The notes under the pieces: model-generated
Databases searched by the model: none
Told to the model about the DNA's origin: nothing
What the model saw: the letters and a program-made list of their open reading frames with translations, nothing else
Part shown: piece by piece, positions 3,911-57,783 of the stretch
How the letters are laid out: each line of letters opens with the position of its first letter
Numbering within the stretch: the first letter of the stretch is position 1
Program-made: the position numbers and the translations under genes
Origin: Mesorhizobium sp.
GTDB taxonomy: Bacteria; Pseudomonadota; Alphaproteobacteria; Rhizobiales; Rhizobiaceae
Reading direction: 5' to 3'
Assembly: GCA_004017535.1 (NCBI GenBank)
Contig: SAJS01000008.1
Span: 1 to 64,000, forward strand
DNA: 64,000 nt

Positions 3911-5509
3911 TCATTCAGACAATTCTTCTCCCGTGGAGGCGATCTGCCCAGCAACATGGATCGTGGCCACCTCATACACTCTCTCATGAGGAAATTTTCT
4001 GAAGTAAGAATGCTCGGCATCTAACGAATTGTCGATGCTAGACGCTAGGATGGAAGAAAGTATCTCTAGCGCCGAATTTATAGTTGTCGAGCAAAGGGAC
4101 CAAAGCCTAGTATCGAAATATCCATCTGTTCCCTCAAGCCAAGGGTGCCCCCTCCTTTTAAATACGTACTTGCCTAACATTTTGTCAGAAGCGTATCGAT
4201 TTATATCGAAGCCATCGGAAAGTTGGTACCTTCCGGAAATCTTAAATATTCTTTTGTTGAATTTTCCTGAGCTTATAACTTTAATAAGTGAAAGAGCGTG
4301 AATTAAGGAATAGGTCTCCGAAAGCGTTTTGGAGTAGTCGGAAGTCTTCCAAAACCCTCCAAGATCTCGTGACAGATGAAGCCCAGGATTAAGGCTGTTT
4401 AAAAAGACCGCAATGTCAACTTCCGCGCGTATCTCATCTTCATATCCCGGATTGAGTGGCATAGAAGACGAATCAACCAAAATAATGAAGGACTCTGGAA
4501 CATGGTTTTTTATTGATCGAGTCGTTCGCAGGGTCTGTGCGAGTCTCTCCTTAGGTGAGAAAACTCCTTGATTCGTTCCTAAGGCGGATGTTACAATAAA
4601 TATGTAAGGGCTTATCTCCAATTTTTCTTTTGTATATGCAGAGTATTCCTTAATCGGTTGCAACGTTGTTGTCTGTTCAATATCAAGGACTCGCGCTTTT
4701 CTAAGCTGTATCAGGTAAGACGCCATCTGTTGAACTTTGTCGATCCCGCGAGACCAGACAAAGTGTCTGAATCCACTTGGTTCGCCAACATATTGGTCCC
4801 ACTCACGTACGAACTTGCATCGATTATCTAGGGATTCTGTGTCTGCGGTTTGCGTTCGCACTAGAACATAATTCAATATCGGCTGATCGCCGAACCACCG
4901 GATAAGCTCTTGATTCGTAGGATCTTGGCACAGTCTCGCGACTTGACCGCCGACCGGGCGGAAGAATTCCGCGTCTTTGTAGCCGATAATCCCGGAATTT
5001 GCGCATGGCAAAAACCTTTGCGCGCATTCAGGGTCCGCGCGACAGAGTTCAAGCCCGAACCAATTCCCGATTCGGCGCGAGTCTATGACGTCAGCAATCT
5101 TGGATGAGGCCAATTCGGGATAACCAGAACTTTCTGTCGTGACGCAAACGCCGTCTGCCTCCAGAACGCCCCTCAATATCGACTCGATGTCGGCGTCGAC
5201 TACAACATCTGTATCAAGGTACATAATGGGTGAGTAATCATCGAAAATATGTGAAGAAATAATATAGCGTTGATAAATATTTATATGATCAACTTTTTCA
5301 AAGTGGATACGGGACCTGTATTGCCTTGGAATATACGGGATGACGTCCTCTGCTTCTCTATCCGAGACAATTGCTATGTTGCCGTTAAAATCTCCAAATT
5401 CTAGTAGGGAAATCAACATAATGTTCAGGCATTCAAAGTATGTATTATCGCCAAAGGCAACAGTATAAATGAGAGGGCGGAAGGTGCGTCTTTCTCTTGT
5501 TGAAGACAT
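3911..5509 (-). CDS. Glycosyltransferase, GT8-like with C-terminal second domain
   Basis: A 532-aa protein. The N-terminal half looks like a GT-A (GT8-type) sugar transferase: an IYTVAFGD opening and a DxD metal motif in MYLDTDVVV (Asp99, Asp101). Further on is ANSGIIGYK and an acidic FGDQPILNYVL. The C-terminal half (from about residue 300) is a second, unassigned domain. It is the last gene of a three-gene minus-strand operon, starting 5 bp after the stop of the upstream gene. The ATG at 5509 is preferred over one at 5545 that would overlap. The DNA is clearly more AT-rich than its neighbours, which suggests separate acquisition. The acceptor is unknown. Confidence 0.75.
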   Translation of the reverse strand: MSSTRERRTFRPLIYTVAFGDNTYFECLNIMLISLLEFGDFNGNIAIVSDREAEDVIPYIPRQYRSRIHFEKVDHINIYQRYIISSHIFDDYSPIMYLDTDVVVDADIESILRGVLEADGVCVTTESSGYPELASSKIADVIDSRRIGNWFGLELCRADPECAQRFLPCANSGIIGYKDAEFFRPVGGQVARLCQDPTNQELIRWFGDQPILNYVLVRTQTADTESLDNRCKFVREWDQYVGEPSGFRHFVWSRGIDKVQQMASYLIQLRKARVLDIEQTTTLQPIKEYSAYTKEKLEISPYIFIVTSALGTNQGVFSPKERLAQTLRTTRSIKNHVPESFIILVDSSSMPLNPGYEDEIRAEVDIAVFLNSLNPGLHLSRDLGGFWKTSDYSKTLSETYSLIHALSLIKVISSGKFNKRIFKISGRYQLSDGFDINRYASDKMLGKYVFKRRGHPWLEGTDGYFDTRLWSLCSTTINSALEILSSILASSIDNSLDAEHSYFRKFPHERVYEVATIHVAGQIASTGEELSE

Positions 5510-5514
5510 TGCGT

Positions 5515-6609
5515 CTAATCCGCTTGAGAGCCATGCTCGCAGCAAACTTCGCGACGCTGGACAAAGAAATCAAGGTTATTCTTGAGGCGCTGATTGCTTG
5601 GGTCCAATTCGAGCGATTTTTGTCCCCACTCCACCGCACGATCCATGGCGTTGAGATGCCAGCACGCAATGGCTCCCAAATCGTAGAGCCGAAAACCCCA
5701 GCAGCTCGCGTCATCAAGATAGCTTCCAGTGCGACGCGTCTTCTCGATGCCGTTGCTGCAAGCCCAGAACAGATTGAGCCAGTCGGCCTTGCCGTGAAAC
5801 TCCTCGGCAAGGTCAAGCCAGATTTCACGTCGATGCGGCGCTTCCATCCTGGCTTTGTCCAGCCAGGTTAACCTTTGCTCCGGTTGCATGCGGGCTATAT
5901 AGCGCATAGCCTCGGATCGTTCTTCATCCCATCTGCTTGTCGGCAGGGTCAGGTAGCGTTCAAGCAGTTCGACTGCCCGCTCTTGTTGGCCTGCCCACAT
6001 CAAGTCCCGACCGAGCCAAAAACAGATTTGCGCGTCTTGGGGATCTTCATCGTGCGCCACTTGCATCAACGGCAGGTAGTTGCTGCGCGTCGGCTTGGAT
6101 AAATCCTGCACTTCGTACATCACTATGTCGCTGCTGTTCGCTGTGACCTCCTTTTCTCCGGTGAAGACGAGCGCCTCGTGGACCGGTCGCTTAAAACGAT
6201 ATCCCCATCGGTGGTGAAAATTCTTTGTCGACCACCCTCGCAGCGGCGTCGGATCGTCGACACTGGACCTGTATATGGTCTTGCAAAAGAGTGCTGAGGT
6301 TTCAGGGGTCCAGGCATTCTCTAGCTTCTGTCGCCAGCCGGCTTCGAGAAACCGATCCATATCCATCGTACAGCATATGTCCACGTCATCGGGCAGGAGC
6401 GCCATGGCGGCATTGCGGGCATCATCGAAGCGCCAAGGGCGGACTGCAATCTTATGCACCGTGACCCCAGCGGCGGTCAGCCGTTCCACCGTACCGTCGC
6501 TACTGCCAGTGTCGGCGACTATCCGATAGTCCGCGTCCGCGGCGGAATTGGCCCACCGTTCCGCGTTGGCGGCTTCGTTCAACGCGATGGTATAGACCGC
6601 GACCTTCAC
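5515..6609 (-). CDS. GT2-family glycosyltransferase with TPR-like C-terminus
   Basis: A 364-aa protein with an N-terminal GT2 fold: YTIALNEAANAERW, VADTGSSDGT for nucleotide-sugar binding, and the metal-binding DMD at residues 82-85 (TMDMDRFLEAGW). From about residue 185 the sequence is helical and TPR-like. The start is GTG at 6609, overlapping the stop of the upstream gene (GTGA), so translation is coupled. With its neighbours it forms an operon of three sugar transferases divergent from the collagen-like protein genes. Confidence 0.82.
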   Translation of the reverse strand: MKVAVYTIALNEAANAERWANSAADADYRIVADTGSSDGTVERLTAAGVTVHKIAVRPWRFDDARNAAMALLPDDVDICCTMDMDRFLEAGWRQKLENAWTPETSALFCKTIYRSSVDDPTPLRGWSTKNFHHRWGYRFKRPVHEALVFTGEKEVTANSSDIVMYEVQDLSKPTRSNYLPLMQVAHDEDPQDAQICFWLGRDLMWAGQQERAVELLERYLTLPTSRWDEERSEAMRYIARMQPEQRLTWLDKARMEAPHRREIWLDLAEEFHGKADWLNLFWACSNGIEKTRRTGSYLDDASCWGFRLYDLGAIACWHLNAMDRAVEWGQKSLELDPSNQRLKNNLDFFVQRREVCCEHGSQAD

Positions 6610-9600
6610 GACGCCTTCCCTATCCGAGCGACGCTGTCATGTGGATAAGATGGATTTGCGCGCTTGCGGATGGCCACGAGCCCACCGAGCAATTGCGCTC
6701 GGTCGAGCTCATAATGGCTATCAAAGAAGAGAATTTCAGCAAATTGTCCAGCAAGCGCGCTGACACCGAGCGGATCGACCGACCGCGCCGTCCCGCATTC
6801 CTTGATTTCCCGCAACAGGGCCTTGGTCGGCGTGATCTTGGTGAGGTCTTCGCCAGGCGGCTGCCAGTCTAGGTCCTCGATGAAATACCAACCATCCTCG
6901 GCAAGAAGCGGAAAGAACTCGCGCAGCGTAAGTTGTTCGTCGAAGGACGCATGGCTGCCATCGTCTACAATGACGTCGAGCGAGCGCGCTTCGATCGTTG
7001 CCGCCACCCGGCGAAGGTCCTCCACACTGGATTGGTCGCAGACGAAGGATCTGAACCTCTCGTTGTTGAGCGATGAAAAATCCGTCAGGTCGACGCCAAT
7101 GACCTGGCAAAATGGAAAATAGCTCTGCCACAGGGCCACCGAAGGTGTCTCGGTCTGATTGCGTTCCGCCAAACCGCGGCAGAGCCCAATCTCCATCAGT
7201 CGCCGCATGGACAAGCGCCGCGCCGACAGAAGGCGATCGTAAATCCTCGCATAGCAGTGGCGGTTGCCGGTATGCCGGTTCTTGTCGGTGTTGAACTTGT
7301 CGGCAAGCGTGGTGAAGGGAGGAAAGCCCTCCAGCGGGCTGATAAGCTGCGCGATGAACGCAGCGCTCTTTTCGTGGGGCGGGGCTTCGTTGCGCGCCGT
7401 CCAAAGGTGGATTGCGAAAACGCGATCGTCGTTCAAATAGTCTGCCAGTTCCGTGATCGGCTTTTCGAACCTGTCTGTTTCCGTCCAGTCGATCGAGTTG
7501 AAGAACATCGGGCTGAAGACCTGGTCGTGCAACTCGGAGCCGGCATCCGAGGCTATGTAGTCGGACAGCAGCTTTGGCCCGATGTCGCCGAATTCCTTGC
7601 CCGGTGTCGCATGGAAGCGTTCGATGGACATTTCATAAAGCGCCCTGAGGTGTCGGCTGTAGGGCTTTGCGTAGATGACGTTACCGCAAACAAAATGACC
7701 CTTGTGCGATCCACGCCATTGCAGATTGAAGAAATGATCGCCGCTGAAGGCGAACGGCCTCAGCATGATGATGTCGGAATCCATCCAAAGGCCGCCATGC
7801 TCGTACAGCACAGCGTAGCGAAAGACATCGCTGAAATACCTGATCTCGGAACCAGCGACGATACGCTCGAACGTGGCCCGGGGCATGACGTCGTCGGCAG
7901 CGCAAACCTCAACGCCATGCGGCAACAGGAACTCCAATCTCTTCGGAGAATAACTCCAAACGCGCACCGGATGGCCAGCCGCCCGCATCGAGGCGGTGGC
8001 GGCAATCAGGGTGCGATGCTCGGCCTTTTCGGAAAGCACTTCGTAGAAGCAGTGGATCTGCGGCAACGCCGCGCCATCGCTGATGAACGGCGCGATGCGC
8101 CGATCGAAATCCCGCGATTGCCTTTGCCGTTCCGCCGGCGAGTCGACCGCTTCCAGAAACGGCGCGAACTTGCGGAAGAATTCCTCCGTTGCCTGGCTCG
8201 AAGGGAAGCCGAAAGGCTTCGGCTCGGCAGGTGCTTCGGCGCCACTGGGTCGGCTGCCGCTGCCGCCAAATCTGACCCCACCGGAATGTCCCGCGCCGGG
8301 CGAGGTGAGAGGTGGCGTCGGCTCGAGACGGGCAATGTTCATAGCCGAAGCCAATTCCGCAGCGTCGTCGAGCAACGGGGCGACCTGGTCAGCCTGCACG
8401 GTCGCGATCCACGACTCGCTCTCGCCTGTGCCGTAGGAGATCATCAGTCGCTTGGCGTCGGGATGCCAGGCGAGCCCGGCAGCGACCTCCAAGCCCTTGT
8501 CATGGAAGTAAAAGGGCCGCGAGACTTTGGTCAGTCGGTGGCCATCGTCGAACCAGACGAAGCGGTGCTGGTGATAATGCCGGCCCTCGTTTGGCCTCGC
8601 GCGTGCCTCGTGCACCAGCGCCAGCCAGCCGCCGTCGAACACAACCGCCTGCGAGCAGCCGCTGAACTGTGGCGCCGCGATCACCGGCGCCTGCTCCGAA
8701 ACCGTCCGGCCGTTCTCGTCCAGTATCTTGGTGGGGTCGCACCGATGGACAAAACGGAGCAGGTCGCTGCCGTCAGAACCGGGCTCGACCAGCGGCATCC
8801 AGTTCTTCTCGTGCTGCCGCTGACCGGCCGGGTGAATGACGCGCCAATCGGTGAGAGTATGTGGTGCGAGCCCAGTGTCTTCGATTCTTGCCAGTACCTG
8901 CTCGCACCACCCCTCCGGCGTGAGTTGCCGTACGCAGGCAATTCCCCAAAGCTTGTCGCGCCAGGCGAACAGTCGCATGTCCGCAAAACCGAGCGCCTGG
9001 TTGTAGGCGGGCGACGGCAGATCGGCTGGCGGCAGCACTTCGCGGGTGCCCTTCGTGACGAGATCGCCGTCGAGACGCAGCAGAAAGTTGCGCGTTGTGA
9101 TCGGCGCCTCGCCGGGCGTTGCGTGTTGGCCGGCATCGGTCGGCGTCGAGTTGACGGCCGGCTGCAGCAGCACGATTTCTTCGCCCAGGCGCGCTACCGA
9201 CGGGTTGGTTGCCACATAGCTCTTCGGCGCGGCAAAATCGATCCGTCGTGCCTTAAAGGATGGCATGATTTCGTTCGCTGGCCGTATGTAAAAATAAAGA
9301 TTGGATCGCGCCAGGTCCCTTGGTCCGTCGCCGATTTCCCGATCAAGCGCCAGCCAGTTGCAGGCAGCGAAACCGCGGTCCTTGCGCGCCGGATCGCGGG
9401 CGTAGTTCGCGGCAATCGAATACTCCTCCCGCAGCCCTGCCGTGTAGACAAAGTTCTCGAGAAACAGGATGTCCTGCTCGGGTCGTTTGATTGCCAGTCC
9501 GGCTTCCGAAAACAGCACGCTGGCGTCGTTCATGCCCTTCTCGCGATAATGGTGGGCAAGGTCATAGAGCGGCTCGGCGCGCTGCGGACGCGCGTTGAAC

Positions 9601-10373
9601 GCGGCGAGGGCCTGGTGGATGAAACCGGCATCATCGCCCATCTTTTTTAGGCACCGCGCCTCCTGGAGACGGGCGTTCCATGCCTCCTCGTCCCAGCCGC
9701 CCATCGCGGCGCGTTTGGCGTACGCCACCGCCGCTTCCGCCGTCCGCCCGGCATCACGATAGGATTGCGCCAGGTAGAACCAGTAGCGATGGTTTTCCGG
9801 ATCCTTGTCCAGAGCTCCCAATAGGAGCTTTATGTCACGCTCGAACTTGTCGACGCGGTTCGAACCAGTGGCATGGTCCTTGTACCAGATAGACCGCAGT
9901 TCGTGCACGCCATCAGGCACGTCTATGTATTCGTGGGTCACACCATGGTAGCGCGCACCCGATGTGCGCCTCACCAGACGCGTATTCCAGTAGGCAAGGC
10001 CGGACTCCGACTTTTGCAGGACCCGATAGCCCGGCGCATCGAGCTGTTCTCGAAACAGGTGATCCTCAATGACGAGCTCCATATCGGCGTCGTCGAAAAG
10101 CAGGTAGTCGTAGTCGAGGCTGGAGGCGTAGGCATGCTCGAGAGCCGCGTTACGTGCCTGCCCGAAATTGTGAAACGGAAATTCATGCAACTCGCCGGGT
10201 ATGTTGCGGGCAGCAAAGAAAAAGCGGATGAAATCCTGCGTCCCATCCGTCGAGCCGGTGTCGCCAATCACCCAGCAAGCAATGTGATCGGCGACCGCAC
10301 CGAGACAACGCTCAAGATTGGGCATCTCGTTCTTGACGATCATATTTAGGCAGAGACGTTTTGCGGTACTCAT
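6606..10373 (-). CDS. Multi-modular glycosyltransferase / propeller / glycosyltransferase / methyltransferase
   Basis: A 1255-aa protein with four recognisable parts. Residues 1-220 are a GT2 domain (LCLNMIVKNE, GDTGSTDGT, DDADM), followed by TPR-like helices to about 330. Residues 380-680 are beta-rich and resemble the glycosidase-type five-bladed propellers found beside GT2 domains. After a Gly/Pro/Ser linker, residues 730-1000 form a GT32-like transferase with DxD in GGLWMDSDIIML (Asp865-Asp867). Residues 1035-1250 resemble an O-methyltransferase (IGVDLTDFSS, DVIVDDGSHASFDEQ, YFIEDLDW). The start ATG at 10373 precedes the conserved GT2 N-terminus; an alternative is at 10400. First gene of the operon. 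Probably builds and caps (methylates) an oligosaccharide; the acceptor is unknown. Confidence 0.85.
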   Translation of the reverse strand: MSTAKRLCLNMIVKNEMPNLERCLGAVADHIACWVIGDTGSTDGTQDFIRFFFAARNIPGELHEFPFHNFGQARNAALEHAYASSLDYDYLLFDDADMELVIEDHLFREQLDAPGYRVLQKSESGLAYWNTRLVRRTSGARYHGVTHEYIDVPDGVHELRSIWYKDHATGSNRVDKFERDIKLLLGALDKDPENHRYWFYLAQSYRDAGRTAEAAVAYAKRAAMGGWDEEAWNARLQEARCLKKMGDDAGFIHQALAAFNARPQRAEPLYDLAHHYREKGMNDASVLFSEAGLAIKRPEQDILFLENFVYTAGLREEYSIAANYARDPARKDRGFAACNWLALDREIGDGPRDLARSNLYFYIRPANEIMPSFKARRIDFAAPKSYVATNPSVARLGEEIVLLQPAVNSTPTDAGQHATPGEAPITTRNFLLRLDGDLVTKGTREVLPPADLPSPAYNQALGFADMRLFAWRDKLWGIACVRQLTPEGWCEQVLARIEDTGLAPHTLTDWRVIHPAGQRQHEKNWMPLVEPGSDGSDLLRFVHRCDPTKILDENGRTVSEQAPVIAAPQFSGCSQAVVFDGGWLALVHEARARPNEGRHYHQHRFVWFDDGHRLTKVSRPFYFHDKGLEVAAGLAWHPDAKRLMISYGTGESESWIATVQADQVAPLLDDAAELASAMNIARLEPTPPLTSPGAGHSGGVRFGGSGSRPSGAEAPAEPKPFGFPSSQATEEFFRKFAPFLEAVDSPAERQRQSRDFDRRIAPFISDGAALPQIHCFYEVLSEKAEHRTLIAATASMRAAGHPVRVWSYSPKRLEFLLPHGVEVCAADDVMPRATFERIVAGSEIRYFSDVFRYAVLYEHGGLWMDSDIIMLRPFAFSGDHFFNLQWRGSHKGHFVCGNVIYAKPYSRHLRALYEMSIERFHATPGKEFGDIGPKLLSDYIASDAGSELHDQVFSPMFFNSIDWTETDRFEKPITELADYLNDDRVFAIHLWTARNEAPPHEKSAAFIAQLISPLEGFPPFTTLADKFNTDKNRHTGNRHCYARIYDRLLSARRLSMRRLMEIGLCRGLAERNQTETPSVALWQSYFPFCQVIGVDLTDFSSLNNERFRSFVCDQSSVEDLRRVAATIEARSLDVIVDDGSHASFDEQLTLREFFPLLAEDGWYFIEDLDWQPPGEDLTKITPTKALLREIKECGTARSVDPLGVSALAGQFAEILFFDSHYELDRAQLLGGLVAIRKRANPSYPHDSVARIGKAS

Positions 10374-11368
10374 TCGCTGGCTGTGGACCCCACAGAACAT
10401 TGTGCGCAGAGGCTTTGGTGATGGTCTCGCGGCGTCATATGAGACGGCGATTTATTCGGATACGCAACCATCCATATTCTTGCGGAACGCAGGAGCTGAT
10501 GCTTCGGTCGTTTGCATGATTTCGTAAAAGCACTGGAACGGGTTTTGCCCGGTCCGCTCCAATCTCGCTCTTTCCGTCCGGCATCTTCAGACATCCAACG
10601 GCGGCACCGCGCTCTGGATAGGCTCGCTGCAACTTCCGGACGAGCTCCTTGAACTGACCGGCACCAGCTGTTCGGCGGGCCGTGTTCGGAACCCTGCTGC
10701 ATTTTTTTGTTCCAAAGAGGGGCTCGATCTAAACCTCGGATTTCCCACGATGTTTGGACTTGGGCTTTGACCGCACCAGTGTTGCTGCTGTCGTAGAATT
10801 CGTAATTTGTTAACCAAGCCATTTACAAGTTTATAATTTTCGAATTTACTAATGTCTAATTAAGAGAGGGTAATCGCGGCCTGCGGGGAGACCGTCGGTC
10901 GGGATATCTGCGAAGCTTGGAGTCCGGAAGTAAAGCCACTTGCTGCGTGAGGGCGCAGCATCGTGGTCGACCGGGGTTCTGTCAGTCCTCGGTGCCTTCC
11001 AATTGTCCCCTCGCGAGCGGGTCGGTTCCCTCACTAGTCCAGTCGAAAGATTGCGACGCGTGTGTTGGAGTCCCCGGTGCTTCGAGTGATACCCTCCGCC
11101 CAACGCCCCTGTGCCGATGCGGCAGTCCGTGTGGCCGCACCCCCATTTAATCTGAACCTCTCAGCTCTCGTCGACTTGCGGGCAGCCGCCGGTCGCTCGT
11201 TTGCTGACGCGTTCCAACGAGTGAAATCACACCTCCGCAATCGGCCGATTTTCGGGATTCGCGAGCTTGAGCCACCTGGTTCGATTGCGGGCCCGCGGCA
11301 CCGACTGAAACACCGACATACGAAACGGACAAGCGGCGGCGCAGCCGCCAGCCAACCAGGAGGACGTT
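10374..11368. other. Long divergent intergenic region
   Basis: About 1 kb between the glycosyltransferase operon (minus) and the collagen-like protein genes (plus). Open frames exist on both strands but none has a ribosome-binding site plus recognisable motif. The part around 10820-10870 is AT-rich and is the most likely promoter zone. It could hold a small RNA or divergent regulatory sites that I cannot identify. Confidence 0.45.
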
Positions 11369-11683
11369 ATGAGTTATACGGCAGGCTTTGCGGTGATGGA
11401 GGTTACTGTTCGGGGCGTGTTGCCCATTGGCGATATGACCGAGAACGAAACCTATTTCATTCTCGATACGGCCAAGAACGCGATCGTTGGCCAGGTTGTC
11501 CTTCCTAAGGCCGTCAAGCGAAGCTTGGCCGTTGCGCTTACCGTGAAAGTCCCAAGCACCGCCCGATCGCTGGCAATTGGCACGTTTGGCGCTGGTGGGA
11601 ATTTTGAGGCCCCCAGCTTCCTCCGTGTAGAAACCCCTGCAGTCGGGCATCTTGGCGGTGCCGTCGGTGCGTCCGGAAGATGA
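11369..11683 (+). CDS. Small beta-domain protein related to the N-region of the collagen-like protein
   Basis: A 104-aa protein; the ATG is preceded by AGGAGG. It has no known family that I recognise. Its body aligns with residues ~180-260 of the next gene product. Here it reads VTVRGVLPIG..NETYFILDT..AIVGQVVLPKA..VALTVKVPSTAR; there it reads [41 protein letters not shown]. It therefore looks like a free-standing copy of the beta-sandwich-like domain that precedes the collagen stalk. It has no signal peptide, like its neighbour, so it may also be a type I substrate or an accessory subunit. Confidence 0.7.
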   Translation: MSYTAGFAVMEVTVRGVLPIGDMTENETYFILDTAKNAIVGQVVLPKAVKRSLAVALTVKVPSTARSLAIGTFGAGGNFEAPSFLRVETPAVGHLGGAVGASGR

Positions 11684-11718
11684 CTGCTCCCAAACCCCTT
11701 TTTGCGAGTGCTCGCTAG

Positions 11719-14853
<3,135 letters not shown>

Positions 14854-15042
14854 GTGGCGGTCGAGAAAAGCTCACGCGGGCCCTGCGGAAACGCCGGGCC
14901 CGCGTCCTCGCGTCTTGAATAGCGGGAAAGGCCTCGTGCCGCGGCCTTGTTCGCACTACAATAGAGTTGCCGGGCACCCACGCCGGCGCGGTCGTGGCGG
15001 CAGCGTTGTCGAACCCTCGCTTGCAGGCGGCAGGGGAAGCAG

Positions 15043-17346
15043 ATGGTGAGCGTTCCTCAATACACCGTAGCTCACCCGGTCCCAATCCGCACGGACATGG
15101 AAGCGGACGAGGCCGGGCAAGGTCACAAGGTCGGAGAGGGCCGGAACCCTGGCGATCCCACCGCTTTCGATCGGATCGGGCCGCGGGTCAAAGCAATGCT
15201 CCAGGTCGCCCGCTATCACGGGGTCGAGCTCGATCCTAATGAATTCAGGGCAACGAGCGAAGGGTCGTTTCCGACCGCTTCCGACCTCTCGCAGTGGGCC
15301 CAGGACGCCGGGATGTGGTCTCGTGCGTTGCGGATCCGCTGGTCGCATCTGTTGCGCTTTGAGCATGTGGGGCCAATCGTCCTCCTGTTTAATGATGGCG
15401 GAGCCGGTCTCCTCGTGGGGGCAAGCGCTCAACACAACCTCGTTTTCCTGAAGAGCGTCGACGCTTCCGATGACGCGGACGCTTTACCGATCGACGAGCT
15501 CCGCCTCGCCCAGGTGTGGTCTGGCGAGGCTGTCCTGTTGCGGGCGGCGCGGTCCTACGTCGCGGCGGACGCGCCATTCACGTTTGGTTGGCTGATCGAT
15601 CTGGTGCGGCTTGAGAGCCGCCCGCTGCGTGATATTGGCATCGCCTCGTTTACGCTCAGCATTCTTACAGTTCTGCCGCCTCTCATCGTAATGACGGTGG
15701 TCAACAAGGTGCTGCAGTTCAGCAGCGTTTCGACCCTGGTGCTTCTCTCGGCCGTGATCGCTGTTGTGTTCGCCTACGAGACGCTGCTCGGCCATGCTCG
15801 GCGGCTCATCGTCAATGTTGTCGGCACACGTCTGGACACGAAGCTCAATCTGCATGTTTTCGGCAGACTGTTGCGCCTGCCGCTCGACTATTTCGAGCGG
15901 CATCCTGCAGGCGAGACGATGTATCACCTTGCCCAGGTTTATCGCATTCGTGAGTTCCTGACCGGCAAGCTCCTCAGCACCTTCCTGGATCTGATCACGT
16001 TGTGCGTCCTGATCCCGGTCATCTTCTACATAAATCCCATACTGGCCTGGATGGTGCTCGCCTGCGCGGTCCTTATCATGGCGACGATCTTCGCCTTCCT
16101 TGCGCCGCTGCGTCGGCGTTATCAGCGCGTCGTGGACGCGGAGACCTGGAAGGCAGCCGCGCTCGGCGAGACCGTCGTCGGCATCAAGACAGTCAAAGCG
16201 CTCGGGCTCGAACCGCAGCGCAAGGCGCTGTGGGACGAACGGGTGGCCGACGCGGGCAAGGCGCGTCTCGCTTTTGGGGAACTGGCCAACTGGCCGCAGA
16301 CCCTCGTGACGCCGATCGAACGCGTCATGGTTCTCGGCACAATGCTCATCGGCGCCTATCTGGCGATGAACGACCGATCAGGCTACATGGTCGGCAGCCT
16401 GTTCGCTTTCATGATGATCGCACAACGCGTCGCGCAACCACTGGTCGGACTGGCACGACTCGTCGAGGATTATGAGGAGGTCAGCGCCGCGATCGGGGAA
16501 GCCGCTTCGGTTCTCAACCGGCCATTGGAGAGCAGTTCCAATTCTGCCGGCCTGCGGCCGAAGCTTGTCGGCGAAATTAAGTTCAGCGATCTGACCTTCA
16601 GTTACATCGGCACCAAAACACCTGCGCTTGACCGGGTCAGCTTCGACATTCCGGCCGGTACTATGTTCGGCATTGTCGGGCGCAGCGGATCGGGCAAATC
16701 GACCATCGCGCGCCTGTTGCAGGGAATAAACCGCGACTACAGCGGGTTCCTCAAGCTCGATGGGGTTGATCTCAAGGAAATCAACCTCCGTCATTTGCGC
16801 CAGGGACTGGGCGTCGTCCTCCAGGACAATTTTCTGTTCCGCGGCTCGATCAAGGACAACATCGTAGCAGGGCGTGCCGGGCTGACGCTGTCCGACGCCA
16901 TGCGTGCCGCTCAATTGGCGGGTGCTGCCGAATTCATCGAACGCATGCCGAACGGCTACGACACGTATATCGAGGAAGGTTCACCCAATCTCTCTGGAGG
17001 CCAGAAGCAGCGGCTGGCAATCGCTCGTGCGCTCATTCATGATCCGACGATCCTGATCCTCGACGAGGCGACGAGCGCGCTCGATCCGGAGAGCGAGGCC
17101 GTGGTGAGTGCGAACCTGATGCGCATTGCCAGCGGACGCACGATGATCATCGTTTCGCACCGGCTCGCCTCTTTGACCGAATGCGACCAGATCCTCGTCA
17201 TGGATCAGGGCAAGGTGCTAGATGTCGCTTCTCACCCGGTGCTTCTGGAGCGGTGCGGTGTCTATCGCCAGCTCTGGCTCCAGCAGAACCGGCATCTTGA
17301 CGGCCGACATGGCCGCCTGGCGGCCGTGCCGTCTCGACCCGACTGA
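15043..17346 (+). CDS. Type I secretion ABC transporter with C39-like domain
   Basis: A 767-aa inner-membrane exporter of the HlyB/PrtD class. Residues ~45-150 form a C39-peptidase-like domain. The position of the catalytic Cys is occupied by a non-Cys residue (VKAMLQVARYHG), so it is the inactive CLD type that docks substrates without cutting them. Residues ~180-460 hold the transmembrane domain. The ATPase has Walker A GRSGSGKST (residue 546 on), signature LSGGQKQR (about 650), Walker B ILILDEATSALD, and H-loop VSHR. The start ATG at 15043 follows GCAGGGGAAGCAG. It lies 189 bp after the collagen-like gene and is followed by the adaptor gene after 11 bp. No TolC gene is in the window. Confidence 0.93.
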   Translation: MVSVPQYTVAHPVPIRTDMEADEAGQGHKVGEGRNPGDPTAFDRIGPRVKAMLQVARYHGVELDPNEFRATSEGSFPTASDLSQWAQDAGMWSRALRIRWSHLLRFEHVGPIVLLFNDGGAGLLVGASAQHNLVFLKSVDASDDADALPIDELRLAQVWSGEAVLLRAARSYVAADAPFTFGWLIDLVRLESRPLRDIGIASFTLSILTVLPPLIVMTVVNKVLQFSSVSTLVLLSAVIAVVFAYETLLGHARRLIVNVVGTRLDTKLNLHVFGRLLRLPLDYFERHPAGETMYHLAQVYRIREFLTGKLLSTFLDLITLCVLIPVIFYINPILAWMVLACAVLIMATIFAFLAPLRRRYQRVVDAETWKAAALGETVVGIKTVKALGLEPQRKALWDERVADAGKARLAFGELANWPQTLVTPIERVMVLGTMLIGAYLAMNDRSGYMVGSLFAFMMIAQRVAQPLVGLARLVEDYEEVSAAIGEAASVLNRPLESSSNSAGLRPKLVGEIKFSDLTFSYIGTKTPALDRVSFDIPAGTMFGIVGRSGSGKSTIARLLQGINRDYSGFLKLDGVDLKEINLRHLRQGLGVVLQDNFLFRGSIKDNIVAGRAGLTLSDAMRAAQLAGAAEFIERMPNGYDTYIEEGSPNLSGGQKQRLAIARALIHDPTILILDEATSALDPESEAVVSANLMRIASGRTMIIVSHRLASLTECDQILVMDQGKVLDVASHPVLLERCGVYRQLWLQQNRHLDGRHGRLAAVPSRPD

Positions 17347-17357
17347 GCTGGCCGGCA

Positions 17358-18764
17358 ATGAGCAGCACCACTTATTCCACTCTTCCAGTTCACCGGCGCC
17401 GGCGAGATACGAGCGATCCGACCGCGCCGGCCATCCTCGAGTTCAAATGGCCGTCGACGGCGGTCGCCAATACACCGATTCCTTGGGTGGCACGCAGTGT
17501 CGTGTGGATCATCTCCAGCATGGTCGCCGCTTTGATTGCGCTCGCCGCGCTGATCCCCGTCGACCAGGTTGTCACGACACGGGGGCTTGTGGTTTCGCAA
17601 TCGCCCAACATCATCGTCCAGCCGTTGGAGACTGCGATCGTGCGGTCGATCGAGGTGCGCGAAGGACAGCGTGTGAAAGCCGGCCAGTTGCTGGCTCGCC
17701 TCGATGCCACCTTCGCTTCAGCGGACCTTACGGCGCTGGCCAGTCAGGTCACCACCCTCGAAGCCGAAGTGGCGCGCCTCAAGGCAGAGGCCGACGGCAA
17801 GCCTTTCAGCTATGATGGACTGGACCCAAGCTGGACACTGCAGGCCGCGATCTTCGATCGCCGCAAGGCAGTATACGATGCAAAGCTTGAAAGCTTCGAC
17901 AGGCAGCGTGACGAGTTGAGCTCCGTCATCTCGCGTTCACAATCCGACGCAGAGGGCTATCGGCAGCGTCTGGCGGTAGCGGCGTCGATCGAAAAGATGC
18001 GGCAGCAGCTCGAGGAGCGGGAGGTTGGGAGCCGTCTCAACACGCTTCTTGCCGAGGACAACTCGGCCGAGATGTCGCGCTCGCTGAACAACGCCGAGCA
18101 GACGACCGAGGCTGCCAAGCGCCAGCAGGCCGCGGCCGCAGCCGAGCGTGATGCCTACGTGCAGAACTGGCGTGCCGATGTCTCGCAGAGCCTTTCGGAA
18201 GCGAATTCACGGATGTCGGACGCGCGTGAGCTTCTAAACAAGGCGAAGCTGCGCAAGCAGTTGGTGGAGTTGAAGAGCGAAGCCGATGCGACTGTTCAGT
18301 CGGTAGCCAAGGTATCGGTGGGTTCGGTCCTGCAGTCCGGCGAGCGCCTGATCACACTTGTTCCAGCCGACGCGACGCTCGAGGTCGAGACCAACATCGT
18401 CGGGCGCAGCAGCGGCTTTGTCCATGTCGGCGACCCTGTGGCCATCAAGTTCGATACCTTTCCCTATTCGCAATATGGCCTGGCGCATGGCACCGTTCGC
18501 GCGGTCAGCCCAGACTCCTTTTCAGCCAGGGAACAGGCGCGCGATCCCAACAGTTCGCTGGCCATGCTGCCCTCCGATGCAGACCTGTTCTATCGCACCC
18601 AAATATCCATTGACGATGTGGCACTCCACGGTTTGCCGGCGGCCTTCGGGATCAGTCCGGGCATGCCTGTGACTGCTGACGTGAAGGTGGGCCGCCGCAC
18701 AGTGCTGAAATATCTGTTGGGTGCCATGCTGCCGATCGGACAGGAAGCGATGCGGGAGCCCTAG
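17358..18764 (+). CDS. HlyD-family type I secretion membrane-fusion adaptor
   Basis: A 468-aa periplasmic adaptor linking the ABC transporter to an outer-membrane TolC channel. It has one N-terminal membrane anchor (about residues 44-68). A lipoyl half-motif follows (VQPLETAIVRSIEVREGQRVKAGQ), then a long coiled coil (about 135-320). The returning lipoyl/beta-barrel part is SVLQSGERLITLVPADATLEVE..VGDPVAIKFDTFPYSQYG. It starts 11 bp after the transporter gene and ends directly against the next start codon, so it is co-transcribed with both. Confidence 0.92.
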   Translation: MSSTTYSTLPVHRRRRDTSDPTAPAILEFKWPSTAVANTPIPWVARSVVWIISSMVAALIALAALIPVDQVVTTRGLVVSQSPNIIVQPLETAIVRSIEVREGQRVKAGQLLARLDATFASADLTALASQVTTLEAEVARLKAEADGKPFSYDGLDPSWTLQAAIFDRRKAVYDAKLESFDRQRDELSSVISRSQSDAEGYRQRLAVAASIEKMRQQLEEREVGSRLNTLLAEDNSAEMSRSLNNAEQTTEAAKRQQAAAAAERDAYVQNWRADVSQSLSEANSRMSDARELLNKAKLRKQLVELKSEADATVQSVAKVSVGSVLQSGERLITLVPADATLEVETNIVGRSSGFVHVGDPVAIKFDTFPYSQYGLAHGTVRAVSPDSFSAREQARDPNSSLAMLPSDADLFYRTQISIDDVALHGLPAAFGISPGMPVTADVKVGRRTVLKYLLGAMLPIGQEAMREP

Positions 18765-20480
18765 ATGGCCATCCTCGACCGCCTGACTGCACGTGTTCAT
18801 CCCGCGCTGGCACTTCGCCGGGCAGTCCAACTCTCTGGCAGTGGCAAGCCTGCGGAAGCTTTTGCGCTGATGGCCATCGCAGCGCGTGGAGGCATTGTGC
18901 AAGCGCAATATCAGGTCGGCCGTTGCTACCTGGAAGGCATGGGCGTGCCGCCAAGCCATTCGGAGGGCGCGCGTTGGTTGCGGCGGGCAGCCGATCGCGG
19001 CAGCCCCGAAGCGCAGGTCCTCCTTGCTGCGCTGTGTGTAGCCGGGCTGGCGCCACAACAAATCGAGGCTGGTTCGGAAGGCTTGTTTGAACGAAATTCC
19101 TCGGGAGAAGCAGACTTCGCGGCAGCGTTCGACCTCGCGCAGAAAGCCGCCGAAGCCGGATCCGCTACCGGCCAGGCCCTGCTCGGCTATATACTGAACA
19201 AGGGTCCAAGGGCGATGCGCGATCTCGATGCGGCGCATGGCTGGTACGAAAAATCAGCTGCGGCCGGTTGCCCGGAAGGATGCCTTGGGCTGGCCCTTTC
19301 TCTAATCCGGTTGAGGCAGCCGGAGCAGAGAACCAGAATCGCCACAGAGCTTCGTCGGGCCGCGGATGCCGGTCTGCCGACGGCGATCTATCTGCTTGCC
19401 GTCCTCGCCGAGCACGGGATTGGAGTGCCTGCCGATCTGGATGCGGCTCAGAGGCTTTACAGCGAGGCGGCGGAGAGGGGGCTCGCATTCGCTCAATTCC
19501 GCCTCGGGCTGGCGCTCATCGAAGGTAGCCTGGTGGATCGAGATCCTGTCGCCGGTGAAGCGTGGTTGCGTCGCGCCGCGTTGGCTGGAAATGTCGATGC
19601 CGCTTATCGCTTGGGCGAACTGTATGCGAGCCGGCCTCGGCGGGATTTTGCCGAGGCAGCGATCTGGTACCGCCGGGCTGCCGATGGAGGTCACCAGCCG
19701 GCCTCACGTGCATTGGCCTCGCTCTATCTTTCGGGCAATGGTGTGGCTCTGGACGCTGAGGAAGGAACTCGCTTGCTGCGCTCCGCAGCAGCCAGTGGCG
19801 ATCGCCAAGCCCAAGTTGATCTGGCAAACCTTGTTCTTGAAGGCGCGGGCGAACCAGATGACGCTGTCGGTGTTGCTGGATGGTTTGGCGCAACCGCTTC
19901 ATCAGGCGATCTGGTTGCGGCGTTCAATCTCGGTCTCTGCTTTGCCGAAGGGGTTGGTGTCGGCAAGGACCAAGAGCGTGCGGCGCTTTGGATGGGGCGA
20001 GCGGCCGAAGGCGTTGCCGAGGCGCAATATATGTATGCCCGCATGCTTCAGGAAGGACGAGGCATGGCTGCCGATCAGAGGCAGGCTCGCGTCTGGTTTG
20101 AGCGGGCGGCAAAAGCCGGCATCGTGGACGCGCAGGTTGCCCTTGCCGAAATGCTTTACAACGGTCGTGGCGGAGAACGCTCCGTCGTTGCAGCGGCCCA
20201 TCTTTTCAAGCGAGCCGCTGCTGCTGGACATGCCGGGGCGATGTTTGCGATCGGAGTATTGTACGAGACCGGACAAGGGCTGTCGATCAATCAAAAGGCA
20301 GCTCAGGAATGGTTTGCAGCGGCCGCTGAAAGAGGCCACGGGCATGCGCAGCTCATGCTTGGCCGCTATCTCTCCAAAGGCATTGCCGGCGATCATGACT
20401 CGGCTGCCGCCCGCATCTGGCTCGAGCGGGCGGCTGCGCACGGTCTCCAGGAAGCCTCTGATGAACTCGCCGAGATATAG
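18765..20480 (+). CDS. Sel1-repeat protein of the type I secretion operon
   Basis: A 571-aa all-helical protein of about fourteen Sel1-like repeats, each with the A-x2-W(F/Y)xxAAxxGx2xAQ..LGxxYxxG pattern (for example ARWLRRAADRGSPEAQ, ARVWFERAAKAGIVDAQ). No signal peptide or membrane segment is visible, so it is probably cytoplasmic. The start ATG abuts the TAG of the adaptor gene. Sel1 proteins act as scaffolds; here it may chaperone the long collagen-like substrate or assist the exporter, which is inference from position. Confidence 0.85.
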   Translation: MAILDRLTARVHPALALRRAVQLSGSGKPAEAFALMAIAARGGIVQAQYQVGRCYLEGMGVPPSHSEGARWLRRAADRGSPEAQVLLAALCVAGLAPQQIEAGSEGLFERNSSGEADFAAAFDLAQKAAEAGSATGQALLGYILNKGPRAMRDLDAAHGWYEKSAAAGCPEGCLGLALSLIRLRQPEQRTRIATELRRAADAGLPTAIYLLAVLAEHGIGVPADLDAAQRLYSEAAERGLAFAQFRLGLALIEGSLVDRDPVAGEAWLRRAALAGNVDAAYRLGELYASRPRRDFAEAAIWYRRAADGGHQPASRALASLYLSGNGVALDAEEGTRLLRSAAASGDRQAQVDLANLVLEGAGEPDDAVGVAGWFGATASSGDLVAAFNLGLCFAEGVGVGKDQERAALWMGRAAEGVAEAQYMYARMLQEGRGMAADQRQARVWFERAAKAGIVDAQVALAEMLYNGRGGERSVVAAAHLFKRAAAAGHAGAMFAIGVLYETGQGLSINQKAAQEWFAAAAERGHGHAQLMLGRYLSKGIAGDHDSAAARIWLERAAAHGLQEASDELAEI

Positions 20481-45286: not shown

Positions 45287-47029
45287 TTGCGCCCGGAGGC
45301 ATCAGGCGTCGGCATAGAGAATGAGAAGTCTTCCCCGATCGATGTTTCACGTGCCGGCGAAGCGCTTCTCGCTGACCTGTTAGCGAATACGACTGAACTT
45401 TTGTCGCTCTATGATCGCGACTTTCGGCTAACGCACTACGCAGCCAGGCTCAAAGGCCTGTACGGAGGCGCGGTGGTGCCAGGCGCCGCCATTTGGGAGA
45501 TCTACCCGAGCTTCCTGGATACCAGGTGCCGCGACGAATTTCTTCGGGTATTTCAGGGCGGCTCTGCGGCAAGCATCGAATTGCCGCGATCATCGGGCGA
45601 AGCGCCTAGGTCCGTTTTCGTCTTCGGCACCGCAGATGGTGTCGGAGTCATCGAATCACAGGGGCGGGGAGGGCGCAGCACGGCGGAGGAGCAGGAGCAC
45701 GTAATTCTGCTCCATCAGGCGACTCATGACGTGCTGACGGGACTGCAGAACCGACGGCGATTCGGAGAGCGACTACAGGAAGCGCTGGCGGCAATCGGCG
45801 GCCCCAAGCCGAAAGCCGCCTTGCTCCAAATCGACCTTGACGATTTCAAGTCGGTCAACGACACGCTCGGCCATGGAGCGGGCGACACGCTCCTGCAACT
45901 CGCGGCAGGTCGAATCCGCGACGCGCTGCAGGATGGCGAATCTGCATACCGGTATGCCGGCGACGAGTTCGCTGTCATCCAATTGGGCAAGGAGCAGCCC
46001 ATGGAAGCCGAGCGCCTCGCCGGATCCCTGGTCAACGCCTTCAAGGACCCGTTTGTCATCAACGGCATTCCCGTCTTCGTCGGTTCAAGCATCGGAATTG
46101 CTTTCGGGCCGGAGCACGGGACCGACGGCGAGCAGTTGATGAAAGCCGCCGACATCGCTCTTTATGCAGCCAAGACGGACGGACGCGGCTGCGCCCGAAC
46201 GTTCAATCGCGCGATGCTGCTCTTGCTCGAACAACGCGAGAATCTCAGGCGCAGCCTTCGAACCGCGCTGGAGCGGGGCGAGCTCTATATTGAGTATCAG
46301 CCGCTCATCCGGCCTCCCTCATCGGTGATCGGATTTGAAGCACTGCTGCGTTGGCGACACCCCGAGATCGGCATCATCCCGCCCGGTGTGTTCATTCCGA
46401 TCGCCGAGGCCGACGGTCTCATGGACGAGATTGGACGATGGGTGCTCGAGCAAGCCTGTCGTCAGGCATTGACGTGGCCTTCCTCGCTGACAGTCGCAGT
46501 CAACCTGTCTCCGGCTCAGTTTCTGAGCGGTTCGTTGACAGATACTGTCGCTCAGATCATTGACGCAGTTGGAATTCGAGCCGAGAGACTTGAACTTGAG
46601 ATAACCGAAACGGTCCTTCTTGAGAAGACAATTGATAATATCGATACATTAAATACTTTGAACGTGTTGGGAATAAGAATCTCTCTTGACGATTTTGGGA
46701 CGTACTACTCATCGTTGAGCTACCTTAAGAACTTTCCATTCGACACCTTGAAGATAGATCAATACTTCATCACGGACTTGGAAACCGACCTCAAGAGCCA
46801 AACGATCGTGCAATCGATCATCAATCTGGCACACGGCCTAGGTATAAGTGTCACCGCCGAAGGGGTCGAGACGTCGGCACAGGCACGGTGGCTGGTCGAG
46901 GAGAATTGCGATTGCCTGCAAGGTAATTTCCTGGGACGGCCGCTTGGAGCCGACGCAACCGGCGATTTCATCAGGCGGTCGCCGTCGAAGGAGGGGCGAG
47001 CGATGGAGGAATCAAATCGGGTGCTCTAG
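45287..47029 (+). CDS. PAS-like / GGDEF / EAL cyclic-di-GMP protein
   Basis: A 580-aa cytoplasmic protein. Residues ~25-110 look like a small PAS-type sensor. The GGDEF domain (~145-300) has the active-site variant AGDEF (224-228) and no RxxD inhibitory site five residues before it. The EAL domain (~315-560) has FEALLRW (351-353), ITETVLL, SLDDFGTYYSSLSYL, FDTLKIDQ and AEGVET, so phosphodiesterase activity is likely. The start is TTG at 45287 with GGAGGTG 7 nt upstream; there is no in-frame ATG nearby. First gene of a six-gene plus-strand run with the partner-switching genes. Confidence 0.88.
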   Translation: MRPEASGVGIENEKSSPIDVSRAGEALLADLLANTTELLSLYDRDFRLTHYAARLKGLYGGAVVPGAAIWEIYPSFLDTRCRDEFLRVFQGGSAASIELPRSSGEAPRSVFVFGTADGVGVIESQGRGGRSTAEEQEHVILLHQATHDVLTGLQNRRRFGERLQEALAAIGGPKPKAALLQIDLDDFKSVNDTLGHGAGDTLLQLAAGRIRDALQDGESAYRYAGDEFAVIQLGKEQPMEAERLAGSLVNAFKDPFVINGIPVFVGSSIGIAFGPEHGTDGEQLMKAADIALYAAKTDGRGCARTFNRAMLLLLEQRENLRRSLRTALERGELYIEYQPLIRPPSSVIGFEALLRWRHPEIGIIPPGVFIPIAEADGLMDEIGRWVLEQACRQALTWPSSLTVAVNLSPAQFLSGSLTDTVAQIIDAVGIRAERLELEITETVLLEKTIDNIDTLNTLNVLGIRISLDDFGTYYSSLSYLKNFPFDTLKIDQYFITDLETDLKSQTIVQSIINLAHGLGISVTAEGVETSAQARWLVEENCDCLQGNFLGRPLGADATGDFIRRSPSKEGRAMEESNRVL

Positions 47030-47139
47030 CCCTGCACTCTTTGTGGAGGGGGGAAAAAGCGATCGAACTGGACACCGCGCAATGCGGAAACTCATCACGA
47101 GGCGGTCAAATTTCCGTCTCGGAGGTCAGGAGGATGCTG

Positions 47140-47661
47140 ATGGGATCTGTTCGTAACGAACCGGCTGGCGAGCCGACTTTTGAGCCGATGATCCAGATCG
47201 ACATGGAGATCAAAGCTTTTGTCTCCGCTTGGAAACACTGCGACTATGTCTCGACATATATGGCGCGGATGATCAGTCAAAACAGATCGGACTCGGTCCG
47301 GCATTCGAATCTGTTTTCCTCTGCCTTCAACGAATTGCTGGAGGTCGCTTTTCGTACGCGCCACACCGACGGCGAACTGGCATGCAGGGTGTCTCGCCAC
47401 GGCGCGACGGACAGAATCGAGCTAACAATCCCTTGCGTGCCGGAGGAACGCCAGTTCTACCAGGAGGCCGTGTCGCATGTCGCCGGCTTTGAGGCCAGGG
47501 AGCGATATCTCAATTCCGTGTCTGGAGATCTGGCGCCCAGCAGGGAGGTCGTACTCCTGGAACTGGCTGTCGACTACAACGCGACACTCAGCGTCGAGGA
47601 GGCCGAAAGCGATGCGATCAAGCTCGTCGTCGATCTTCCACTTGAGGGCCTGCAGCATTGA
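47140..47661 (+). CDS. Degenerate GHKL (anti-sigma-kinase-like) protein
   Basis: A 173-aa protein. The ATG at 47140 follows GGTCAGGAGG. The N-box-like segment HSNLFSSAFNELLEVAFR corresponds to RHSIGYLVNELIENAVKF in the 51201 protein, but the second Asn of N-E-L-x-E-N-A is Val. No glycine-rich lid (GxGxG) is visible. It therefore looks like a GHKL-fold paralogue of the RsbW-like kinase that may bind a STAS partner without phosphorylating it. Its stop overlaps the TTG start of the next gene. Confidence 0.6.
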   Translation: MGSVRNEPAGEPTFEPMIQIDMEIKAFVSAWKHCDYVSTYMARMISQNRSDSVRHSNLFSSAFNELLEVAFRTRHTDGELACRVSRHGATDRIELTIPCVPEERQFYQEAVSHVAGFEARERYLNSVSGDLAPSREVVLLELAVDYNATLSVEEAESDAIKLVVDLPLEGLQH

Positions 47662-55637: not shown

Positions 55638-56030
55638 GTGGATGGAGCGAAGGCAAGAGTTCTGATCTGCGATGATGACCCGTTGTTGCTCGAGCTGATG
55701 GAATTCAGGCTAAGGGCGAAGGGATACGAAGTCATCAAGGCGGTCGACGGGGCGGAGGCGCTGGAGAAGGCGAAGCACGACGCCCCCGACGTCGTCGTGC
55801 TCGACGCGATGATGCCCAAGGCCGACGGCCTTGAAGTGCTGGCGCGCATCAAGGGCGACCCGGCTTTGTCCGATACGCCGGTCGTCATGCTGACTGCCCG
55901 TAAGGGTCAAAAGGACATTGTCTCGGCCTTGGACAAGGGCGCCGACGACTATCTGGTGAAGCCGTTCATTCCCGAGGAGCTATTGGCCCGGCTGGCGCGT
56001 CTCATCGCCCGCAAGAGTGGGAAGCGCTGA
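55638..56030 (+). CDS. Single-domain response regulator
   Basis: A 130-aa receiver with VLICDDDPLLL, VVVLDAMMPKADG, LTARKGQ and VKPFIP. No ATG fits: a GTG at 55638 preceded by GGAGCAGGACT is the best start. An in-frame ATG far upstream would add 43 unlikely residues. Its stop overlaps the next start codon by one base. Confidence 0.88.
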   Translation: MDGAKARVLICDDDPLLLELMEFRLRAKGYEVIKAVDGAEALEKAKHDAPDVVVLDAMMPKADGLEVLARIKGDPALSDTPVVMLTARKGQKDIVSALDKGADDYLVKPFIPEELLARLARLIARKSGKR

Positions 56031-57781: not shown

Positions 57782-57783
57782 CC

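Follow-up and report, generated by a model that had tools for sequence, protein, structure and literature searches.

The locus described here raises the question of whether a collagen-like exoprotein of a rhizobium is glycosylated and exported by the products of its neighbouring genes. It occupies positions 3911-20480 of a 64,000-nucleotide stretch of Mesorhizobium sp. DNA (contig SAJS01000008.1), the whole of which is referred to as the window. A three-gene glycosyltransferase (GT) operon lies divergent from genes for a small beta-domain protein, the exoprotein, HlyB- and HlyD-type proteins and a Sel1-repeat protein. A sequence-only reading of the window had proposed a self-contained system which glycosylates a collagen-like fibre and exports it by a type I secretion system (T1SS). 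This proposal is supported by the association of the parts in 52 of 52 genomes, by the likeness of a module of GT2 and TPR domains (GT2-TPR) to the enzyme SgtA of C. difficile, by a homologue of a human collagen galactosyltransferase in a second class of the GT (class B) and by Gly-X-Thr neighbours of such GTs elsewhere. We infer as the likely explanation that the locus is self-contained, the GTs of the divergent operon glycosylating Thr residues of the exoprotein stalk in the cytoplasm before type I export. All eight genes were present as that reading had placed them, and the features are the following:

3911-5545, minus strand: GT gene 3, 544 amino acids (aa), GT8-like at its N-terminus, low in G+C and belonging to the portion of the cassette that varies between strains

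5515-6609, minus strand: GT gene 2, 364 aa, GT2 domain plus TPR, like SgtA in size and architecture

6606-10400, minus strand: GT gene 1 (GT1), open reading frame (ORF) of 1264 aa, with GT2-TPR module, middle part, GT32/DXD domain and a sugar O-methyltransferase-like C-terminus

10401-11368, no strand: intergenic region separating the two divergent operons; its sequence was read

11369-11683, plus strand: small beta-domain protein, 104 aa, with a beta domain in common with the exoprotein

11773-14853, plus strand: exoprotein with DUF4347 head, beta domain, stalk of 189 G-[A/S/D]-T triplets and a conserved C-terminus as putative secretion signal

15043-17346, plus strand: HlyB-type ABC transporter, TIGR01846 over residues 51-749

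17358-18764, plus strand: HlyD-type adaptor, TIGR01843

18765-20480, plus strand: Sel1-repeat protein, PF08238 (E 1.3e-67, 10 stretches)

Co-occurrence was determined in 146 Mesorhizobium genomes. The exoprotein head (E < 1e-40), a GT resembling the N-terminus of GT1 (E < 1e-30 against its first 336 residues) and HlyB (≥ 76% identity) were each found in 52 of them, and comparison of the sets by script returned the same 52 genomes. For HlyB, the next best match was only about 32% identical. Raw tallies were 54/146 for the exoprotein and 57/146 for the GT; giant DUF4347 proteins with E values of about 1e-18 (G054, G055) were removed from the former and matches with E values of 2.8e-5 to 4.8e-4 (G125, G054, G135, G035, G182) from the latter. 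The regions of all 52 genomes were read. In 51, GT and DUF4347 gene lie next to each other in divergent orientation on a single contig, 441-1990 bp apart (median 1445 bp), and in the 52nd (G149) contig ends interrupt the locus. In five of the 51 (G025, G026, G034, G166, G177), the DUF4347 gene closest to the GT is a paralogue with 46-53% identity to the head encoded in the window, and the main exoprotein gene is on a different contig in G026, G034 and G166. The co-occurrence search suggested by the sequence-only reading thus gave no genome (0/52) with exoprotein and transporter but without a nearby GT, although the GT genes vary by strain. For identical sets of 52 genomes, a log10 P of -40 was obtained under the assumption of independent genomes; given their relatedness this value is optimistic, and it was not relied on.

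The stalk of the exoprotein was examined for its composition. Thr at almost every Y position had been claimed from the window, and counting across the 189 Gly-X-Y triplets gave Thr at 97% of Y positions, with Ala (67%), Ser (21%), Asp (9%) and Pro (2.6%) at X. Stalk ORFs of at least 25 triplets in the fetched loci numbered 66 and covered 49 of the 52 genomes; Thr at Y reached ≥ 90% in 58 and Pro at X was ≤ 3% in 54 of these. The eight ORFs below 90% Thr belong to G025 (66% and 77%), G164 (72%), G045 (79%), G166 (81% and 88%) and G026 (85% and 89%). Within the ten exact 27-residue units of the window stalk, codon columns are invariant or synonymous, with the exception of one A/S change, and Thr at Y is encoded by each of its four codons (65 ACC, 51 ACG, 43 ACT and 24 ACA). 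This synonymous variation and the mixed codon use argue that Thr at Y is maintained at the protein level, beyond mere copying of repeats.

Stalks with Thr at Y are known in kind, but the composition found here is extreme, since bacterial collagen-like proteins generally have Thr as the commonest residue at Y with 31.6% and Pro at X with 19% in the accessible part of the source (PMC8968730). The same average, which holds even without known glycosylation, could be taken to mean that Thr at Y serves its own hydration or hydrogen-bonding effect, which has been suggested for other bacterial collagens, the GTs acting on little of the stalk Thr or on another protein. This is unlikely in view of 97% Thr combined with 2.6% Pro at X, and in view of seven collagen-like loci elsewhere in the genus which have ≤ 15% Thr at Y, with P, Q, R, K or D abundant, and lie in genomes without the GT, save one match in G054 at E 3.4e-4. 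These control loci (L145, L146, L147, L149, L150, L151, L164) are seven of 30 and come from genomes without the exoprotein; they were read in six frames, so that triplets of the wrong strand may be included. With hardly any Pro, the stalk would form an unstable collagen if nothing else stabilised it. The primary papers on glycosylated Thr in Riftia are reportedly Mann 1996 and Bann 2000, known through citations. According to the accessible parts of two sources, glycosylated Thr stabilises the cuticle collagen of Riftia (PMC11766948, PMC10141479).

Two classes of GT were distinguished, both of which start with the GT2-TPR module. Class A, that of the window, was found in 31 genomes, in which GT1 shares 80-100% identity with that of the window across the matched portion of the 336 residues. 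Class B, a different protein, was found in 21 genomes and is 32-36% identical to GT1 over that portion; its open frames have 703-1007 aa, except for 375 aa in G110 and 391 aa in G164. Among named strains with the locus, M. ciceri CC1192 has class B, M. erdmanii USDA 3471 class B together with a remnant of class A, and Mesorhizobium sp. CA14 class A. With a mixed profile of the module, the nearest solved chains were GmaR (E 2.3e-14), SunS (2.8e-9) and 7msk (6.2e-6), and with a profile of class A only, SunS (1.7e-5) and GmaR (2.1e-4). The module is therefore described here as polypeptide-GT-like, on the strength of profile matches. In class B, residues 404-804 are homologous to human procollagen galactosyltransferase 1 (COLGALT1; E 1.7e-45) and to LH3 (6e-14). 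The COLGALT1 match comprises the N-terminal GT domain and part of GT25, the end of GT25 giving only 3.5 bits, and acidic D-x-D-N and E-D-D motifs align. The class A operon of the window showed no COLGALT1-like module.

The tree of the 52 exoprotein heads was used to follow the GT classes. The class changes at least eight times across well-supported branches and nine times in the best tree, the exact count being unsure because of long-branch warnings (G025, G029, G117, and two long groups which meet). Sister pairs differing in class are G021/G022, G003/G145 and G026/G149. In six class B genomes (G050, G113, G022, G112, G177, G110), the 5' end of a class A GT1 was left ahead of the class B gene; two comparisons gave 225-226 bp with DNA identities of 93-95%. 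Where these remnants were read in frame (G022, G113, G112, G177), the match stops near codon 83 and class B starts within a few tens of bases. A GT2-TPR match is kept in 52/52 genomes despite class switching and shortened first GT ORFs. Class switches, junction remnants and the constant GT2-TPR match together argue that cassette and exoprotein partners were re-paired repeatedly while this match stayed in all 52. Chance linkage was rejected on account of the 52/52 association and the re-pairing on at least eight occasions. Shortened first GT ORFs were found in G056 (L091; 699 aa), G110 (L120; 372 aa) and G164 (L143; 375 aa), with GT2-TPR still recognisable, and a decay of genes for outer sugars is possible in these three.

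The cassette beyond GT1 and the 364-aa gene varies between strains. When 30 representative cassette ORFs, the class B protein included, were searched, 27 had GT or methyltransferase matches and three had none; the families were GT4, GT25, GT2, GT32, Glyco_trans_1_2, Anp1 and GT11-like, besides FkbM and other methyltransferases. The GT operon is an exchangeable cassette which differs between strains, and this goes beyond the sequence-only reading, as does the biochemically shown precedent outside rhizobia, SgtA/BclA3. The diversity of the cassette, its GT25, FkbM and GT4 domains and its replacement by recombination resemble polysaccharide loci, and the operon might accordingly make a separate surface polysaccharide (lipopolysaccharide, exopolysaccharide or capsule) and be merely linked to the exoprotein and T1SS genes. 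We consider this improbable. No family of initiating sugar-phosphate transferases, flippases or polymerases was matched at E 0.001 in the 30 representative ORFs. No transmembrane-like segment was found in 33 of 34 cassette proteins, the remaining one (class B) has a single segment, and none of the 34 looks polytopic, a pattern closer to enzymes of the cytoplasm than to machinery for polysaccharide assembly. Furthermore, the common part of the cassettes is the polypeptide-GT-like module, and its association with Thr-rich collagens recurs on Bacillota plasmids among different gene neighbours. Identity as a polysaccharide locus was rejected, as no assembly proteins were seen among the cassette proteins searched.

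Relatives of the locus were read outside the genus as well. In another genus of the family (G747), a 372-aa GT2-TPR enzyme is divergent from a DUF4347/G-[A/G/D]-T exoprotein, which is followed by HlyB, HlyD and Sel1 genes; the contig ends shortly past the GT gene. Two other families of the order (G089, G064) have GT2-TPR, Sel1, HlyD, HlyB and Gly-X-Thr collagen ORFs, in G089 across two contigs, and no DUF4347 match was obtained in either. Exoprotein, class B GT and HlyB were also found on four Mesorhizobium plasmids (three of M. ciceri, one of WSM1497). Of 38 records matching any part of the class B protein, nine plasmid loci with GT2-TPR outside Mesorhizobium were opened, and seven of these have a Gly-X-Y ORF 78-1338 bp away (Priestia twice, Peribacillus, Paenibacillus, Methylobacterium, and Cupriavidus twice). 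The longest runs of the seven ORFs are 27-220 triplets, with 50-100% Thr at Y; on the Bacillota plasmids, the annotation calls the collagen neighbours hypothetical or names them as other collagen-like proteins. Least likely is a modification of the exoprotein elsewhere, in its DUF4347 head or beta domain instead of the stalk Thr, for although the analogies with C. difficile and Riftia leave the site in this exoprotein unfixed, G064 and G089 are without a DUF4347 match and have the Thr-rich Gly-X-Y stalk in common with the Bacillota neighbours.

Two loci weigh against a fixed link between the GTs and a collagen stalk, namely a Caulobacterales metagenome-assembled genome with a DUF4347-collagen gene and no GT match in 10 kb upstream, and a Gluconacetobacter plasmid with T1SS and TPR genes and no collagen-like ORF.

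Some of the loci read gave further observations. On the Bacillota plasmids L219, L224, L225 and L227, GT2-TPR-like genes adjoin Thr-rich collagen-like genes, and one of these loci has two methyltransferases close by; these are probably SgtA-like systems. The other two of the nine plasmid loci opened come from Citrobacter (L218) and Acinetobacter (L226); there, a related GT lies immediately downstream of an autotransporter in the first and of a YadA-type protein in the second, and possibly glycosylates these other surface proteins. Of 15 viral contigs with GT2-TPR, three (L209, L212, L213) encode it close to collagen-like ORFs in which Thr makes up 39-80% of the Y residues, so that phage collagen fibres may be glycosylated, too. 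In M. ciceri (L216, L221), large plasmids carry the locus, with hemN and Crp/Fnr regulators next to it and in CC1192 also ccoNOQP/fixH-type genes; the locus may have a role in symbiosis or in regulation at low oxygen.

The individual genes of the window were annotated as follows. The four GT domains and one methyltransferase of the operon, named in the sequence-only reading, were recovered as GT2, GT32/DXD, GT2, a weak GT8 and a methyltransferase-like C-terminus. For GT1, Pfam gave GT2 with 24.0 bits (cut-off 23.3) and GT32/DXD with 30.0 bits (cut-off 23), whereas TPR was below cut-off. A protein of 1255 aa, the length given in that reading, is likelier than the 1264-aa ORF, because M10 (start at 10373) is invariant across 18 orthologues. 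The C-terminal domain matches Methyltransf_24 at E 0.0067, below cut-off, and a profile of the 18 orthologues matches demethylmacrocin O-methyltransferase at E 1.5e-18; the domain is thus best described as sugar O-methyltransferase-like. The middle region is predicted to be beta-rich in a structure model of low confidence. GT gene 2 had Pfam matches to GT2 (22.1 bits) and TPR, both slightly under cut-off, a weak SunS match (E 0.026) and relatives of 70-91% in the class A alignment. GT gene 3 matched GT8 at E 0.0011 with 19.1 bits, below the cut-off of 24.3. Among the loci read, a close relative (91%) was found only in G045, and matches elsewhere were 34-41%. The G+C content is 0.44 over 4001-5000 compared to about 0.60 in the flanks, which fits the expectation for a recently acquired gene.

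The exoprotein matches DUF4347 (PF14252, E 7.1e-37) and Collagen (PF01391, E 2.6e-81), and a caspase-like fold is predicted for its head. Its start is likely the ATG at 11773 (MARASEIL) rather than the TTG at 11746, because MARASEIL is common to the relatives. Hydropathy showed no transmembrane-like segment, and the C-terminal region is matched in many relatives. RTX families were not among the Pfam and NCBIfam matches, and GGxGxDxxx nonapeptide repeats were not seen on reading the sequence; identity as a LapA/RTX adhesin was rejected, as no RTX repeats were seen. The small beta-domain protein, the gene of which is present in 47 of the 52 genomes carrying the locus, had no Pfam or NCBIfam match at E 0.01; it is 28% identical over 75 aa to the beta domain of the exoprotein and 37-62% to DUF4347 paralogues. 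HlyB matches nearly the full TIGR01846 model (E 1.4e-152, 509.5 bits), under the curated cut-off of 725.55, and HlyD exceeds the TIGR01843 cut-off (443.8 compared to 208.65 bits). The Sel1 protein has no transmembrane-like segment by hydropathy, and its gene adjoins that of HlyD in G089, G064 and G747, too. A TolC-like gene was not among the genes of the locus. Many loci (L085, L093, L104, L107, L109 and others) encode another DUF4347 protein, which has about 250-390 aa and lacks a long stalk, and another stalk protein of greater length, the C-terminal region often being the same, and the fibre may be built of several subunits. Elsewhere in the window, at 45287-51199 and 56030-60245, a GGDEF-EAL protein, a HAMP-SpoIIE phosphatase, a TPR/YaiO-like protein and a GT2 synthase are encoded, a set resembling a locus for regulated exopolysaccharide synthesis.

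Gene content, linkage, homology, Thr at nearly all Y positions and cassette replacement are observed, and from them we infer glycosylation, its substrate and linkage sugar, the order of steps, a trimeric triple helix, the secretion route and a fibre. Substrates of T1SS leave the cell unfolded in one step. Thr O-glycosylation in the cytoplasm before export would be the simplest order, because the GTs look soluble, T1SS substrates exit unfolded and Gly-X-Thr is common to the substrates across taxa. Soluble GTs of the divergent operon would modify the nascent, unfolded exoprotein, the GT2-TPR module of GT1, and secondly the 364-aa protein, adding the first sugar to Thr at Y of the G-X-T stalk. 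Lengthening and capping of the glycan would fall to GT32, other GTs and the sugar O-methyltransferase, the methyltransferase-like domain suggesting a methylated cap. HlyB and HlyD, with a housekeeping TolC, would export the unfolded glycosylated chain via its C-terminal signal, and the Sel1 protein might, as a guess, hold the modified chain for the exporter. Outside the cell, the chains would trimerise, and glycosylated Thr would stabilise the nearly Pro-free helix. Genes for outer sugars would be traded between strains, so that a constant fibre backbone would carry a varying sugar coat.

A wider reading is put forward tentatively. The locus could be a bacterial 'glycotype' system, in which a conserved export module and collagen backbone are combined with interchangeable GT cassettes rewriting the sugar coat, comparable to O-antigen cassettes. 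One class would fuse a COLGALT1 homologue to the Thr-initiating enzyme, glycosylated Thr would replace (hydroxy)proline, and the coat would govern how phages, legume lectins or neighbours recognise it. Strain-specific recognition at the cell surface gains a new candidate in the swapping cassette, and class B provides a bacterial relative of human COLGALT1. A candidate full enzyme set (initiating, extending and methylating) lies together with an exporter in a culturable rhizobial genus, and thereby stable collagen without hydroxyproline becomes a directly testable question.

Several known systems were compared. A literature search by title and abstract start gave no T1SS-linked collagen glycosylation locus and none in Mesorhizobium. 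Like other type I systems, the locus encodes an ABC transporter and an adaptor next to its substrate, but the substrate is without an RTX family match and a dedicated GT cassette is attached. GmaR, which we take to be the Listeria flagellin O-GlcNAc transferase, and the peptide S-GT SunS are the best solved relatives of the GT2-TPR module, but their substrates differ, and we know of no collagen link for either. COLGALT1 and LH3 resemble class B in having collagen as substrate family; the animal COLGALT1, however, acts on hydroxylysine, whereas the class B module is fused behind a bacterial peptide-GT-like module. The glycan of Bacillus BclA carries methylated capping sugars, and export, anchoring and GTs of this protein are different from those of the Mesorhizobium locus. 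BclA is described as a collagen-like, glycosylated exosporium protein in the accessible part of the source (PMC8968730), and the glycosylated bacterial collagens named in the accessible parts of the sources are spore proteins of Gram-positives (PMC7157674, PMC8968730).

The closest likeness is to SgtA and BclA3 of C. difficile. In the accessible part of the report (PMC7157674), SgtA O-glycosylates Thr in the collagen repeats of the neighbouring gene's product, native BclA3 has an extended, capped glycan, and the extending enzymes were sought and not found. Both systems have the gene of a GT-A plus TPR enzyme beside a Thr-rich collagen gene (358 aa in SgtA compared to the 364-aa protein and the N-terminus of GT1), a likeness of architecture and description rather than of aligned SgtA sequence. 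They differ in that BclA3 belongs to a Gram-positive spore coat and has GPT repeats, with only the first GT identified, whereas the Mesorhizobium locus combines a co-located multi-GT cassette, including a sugar methyltransferase-like domain, with an exporter. The locus would thus extend SgtA/BclA3-like Thr glycosylation, here deduced from gene content, to a type I-exported collagen of Gram-negatives with a swappable cassette and a class B homologue of COLGALT1.

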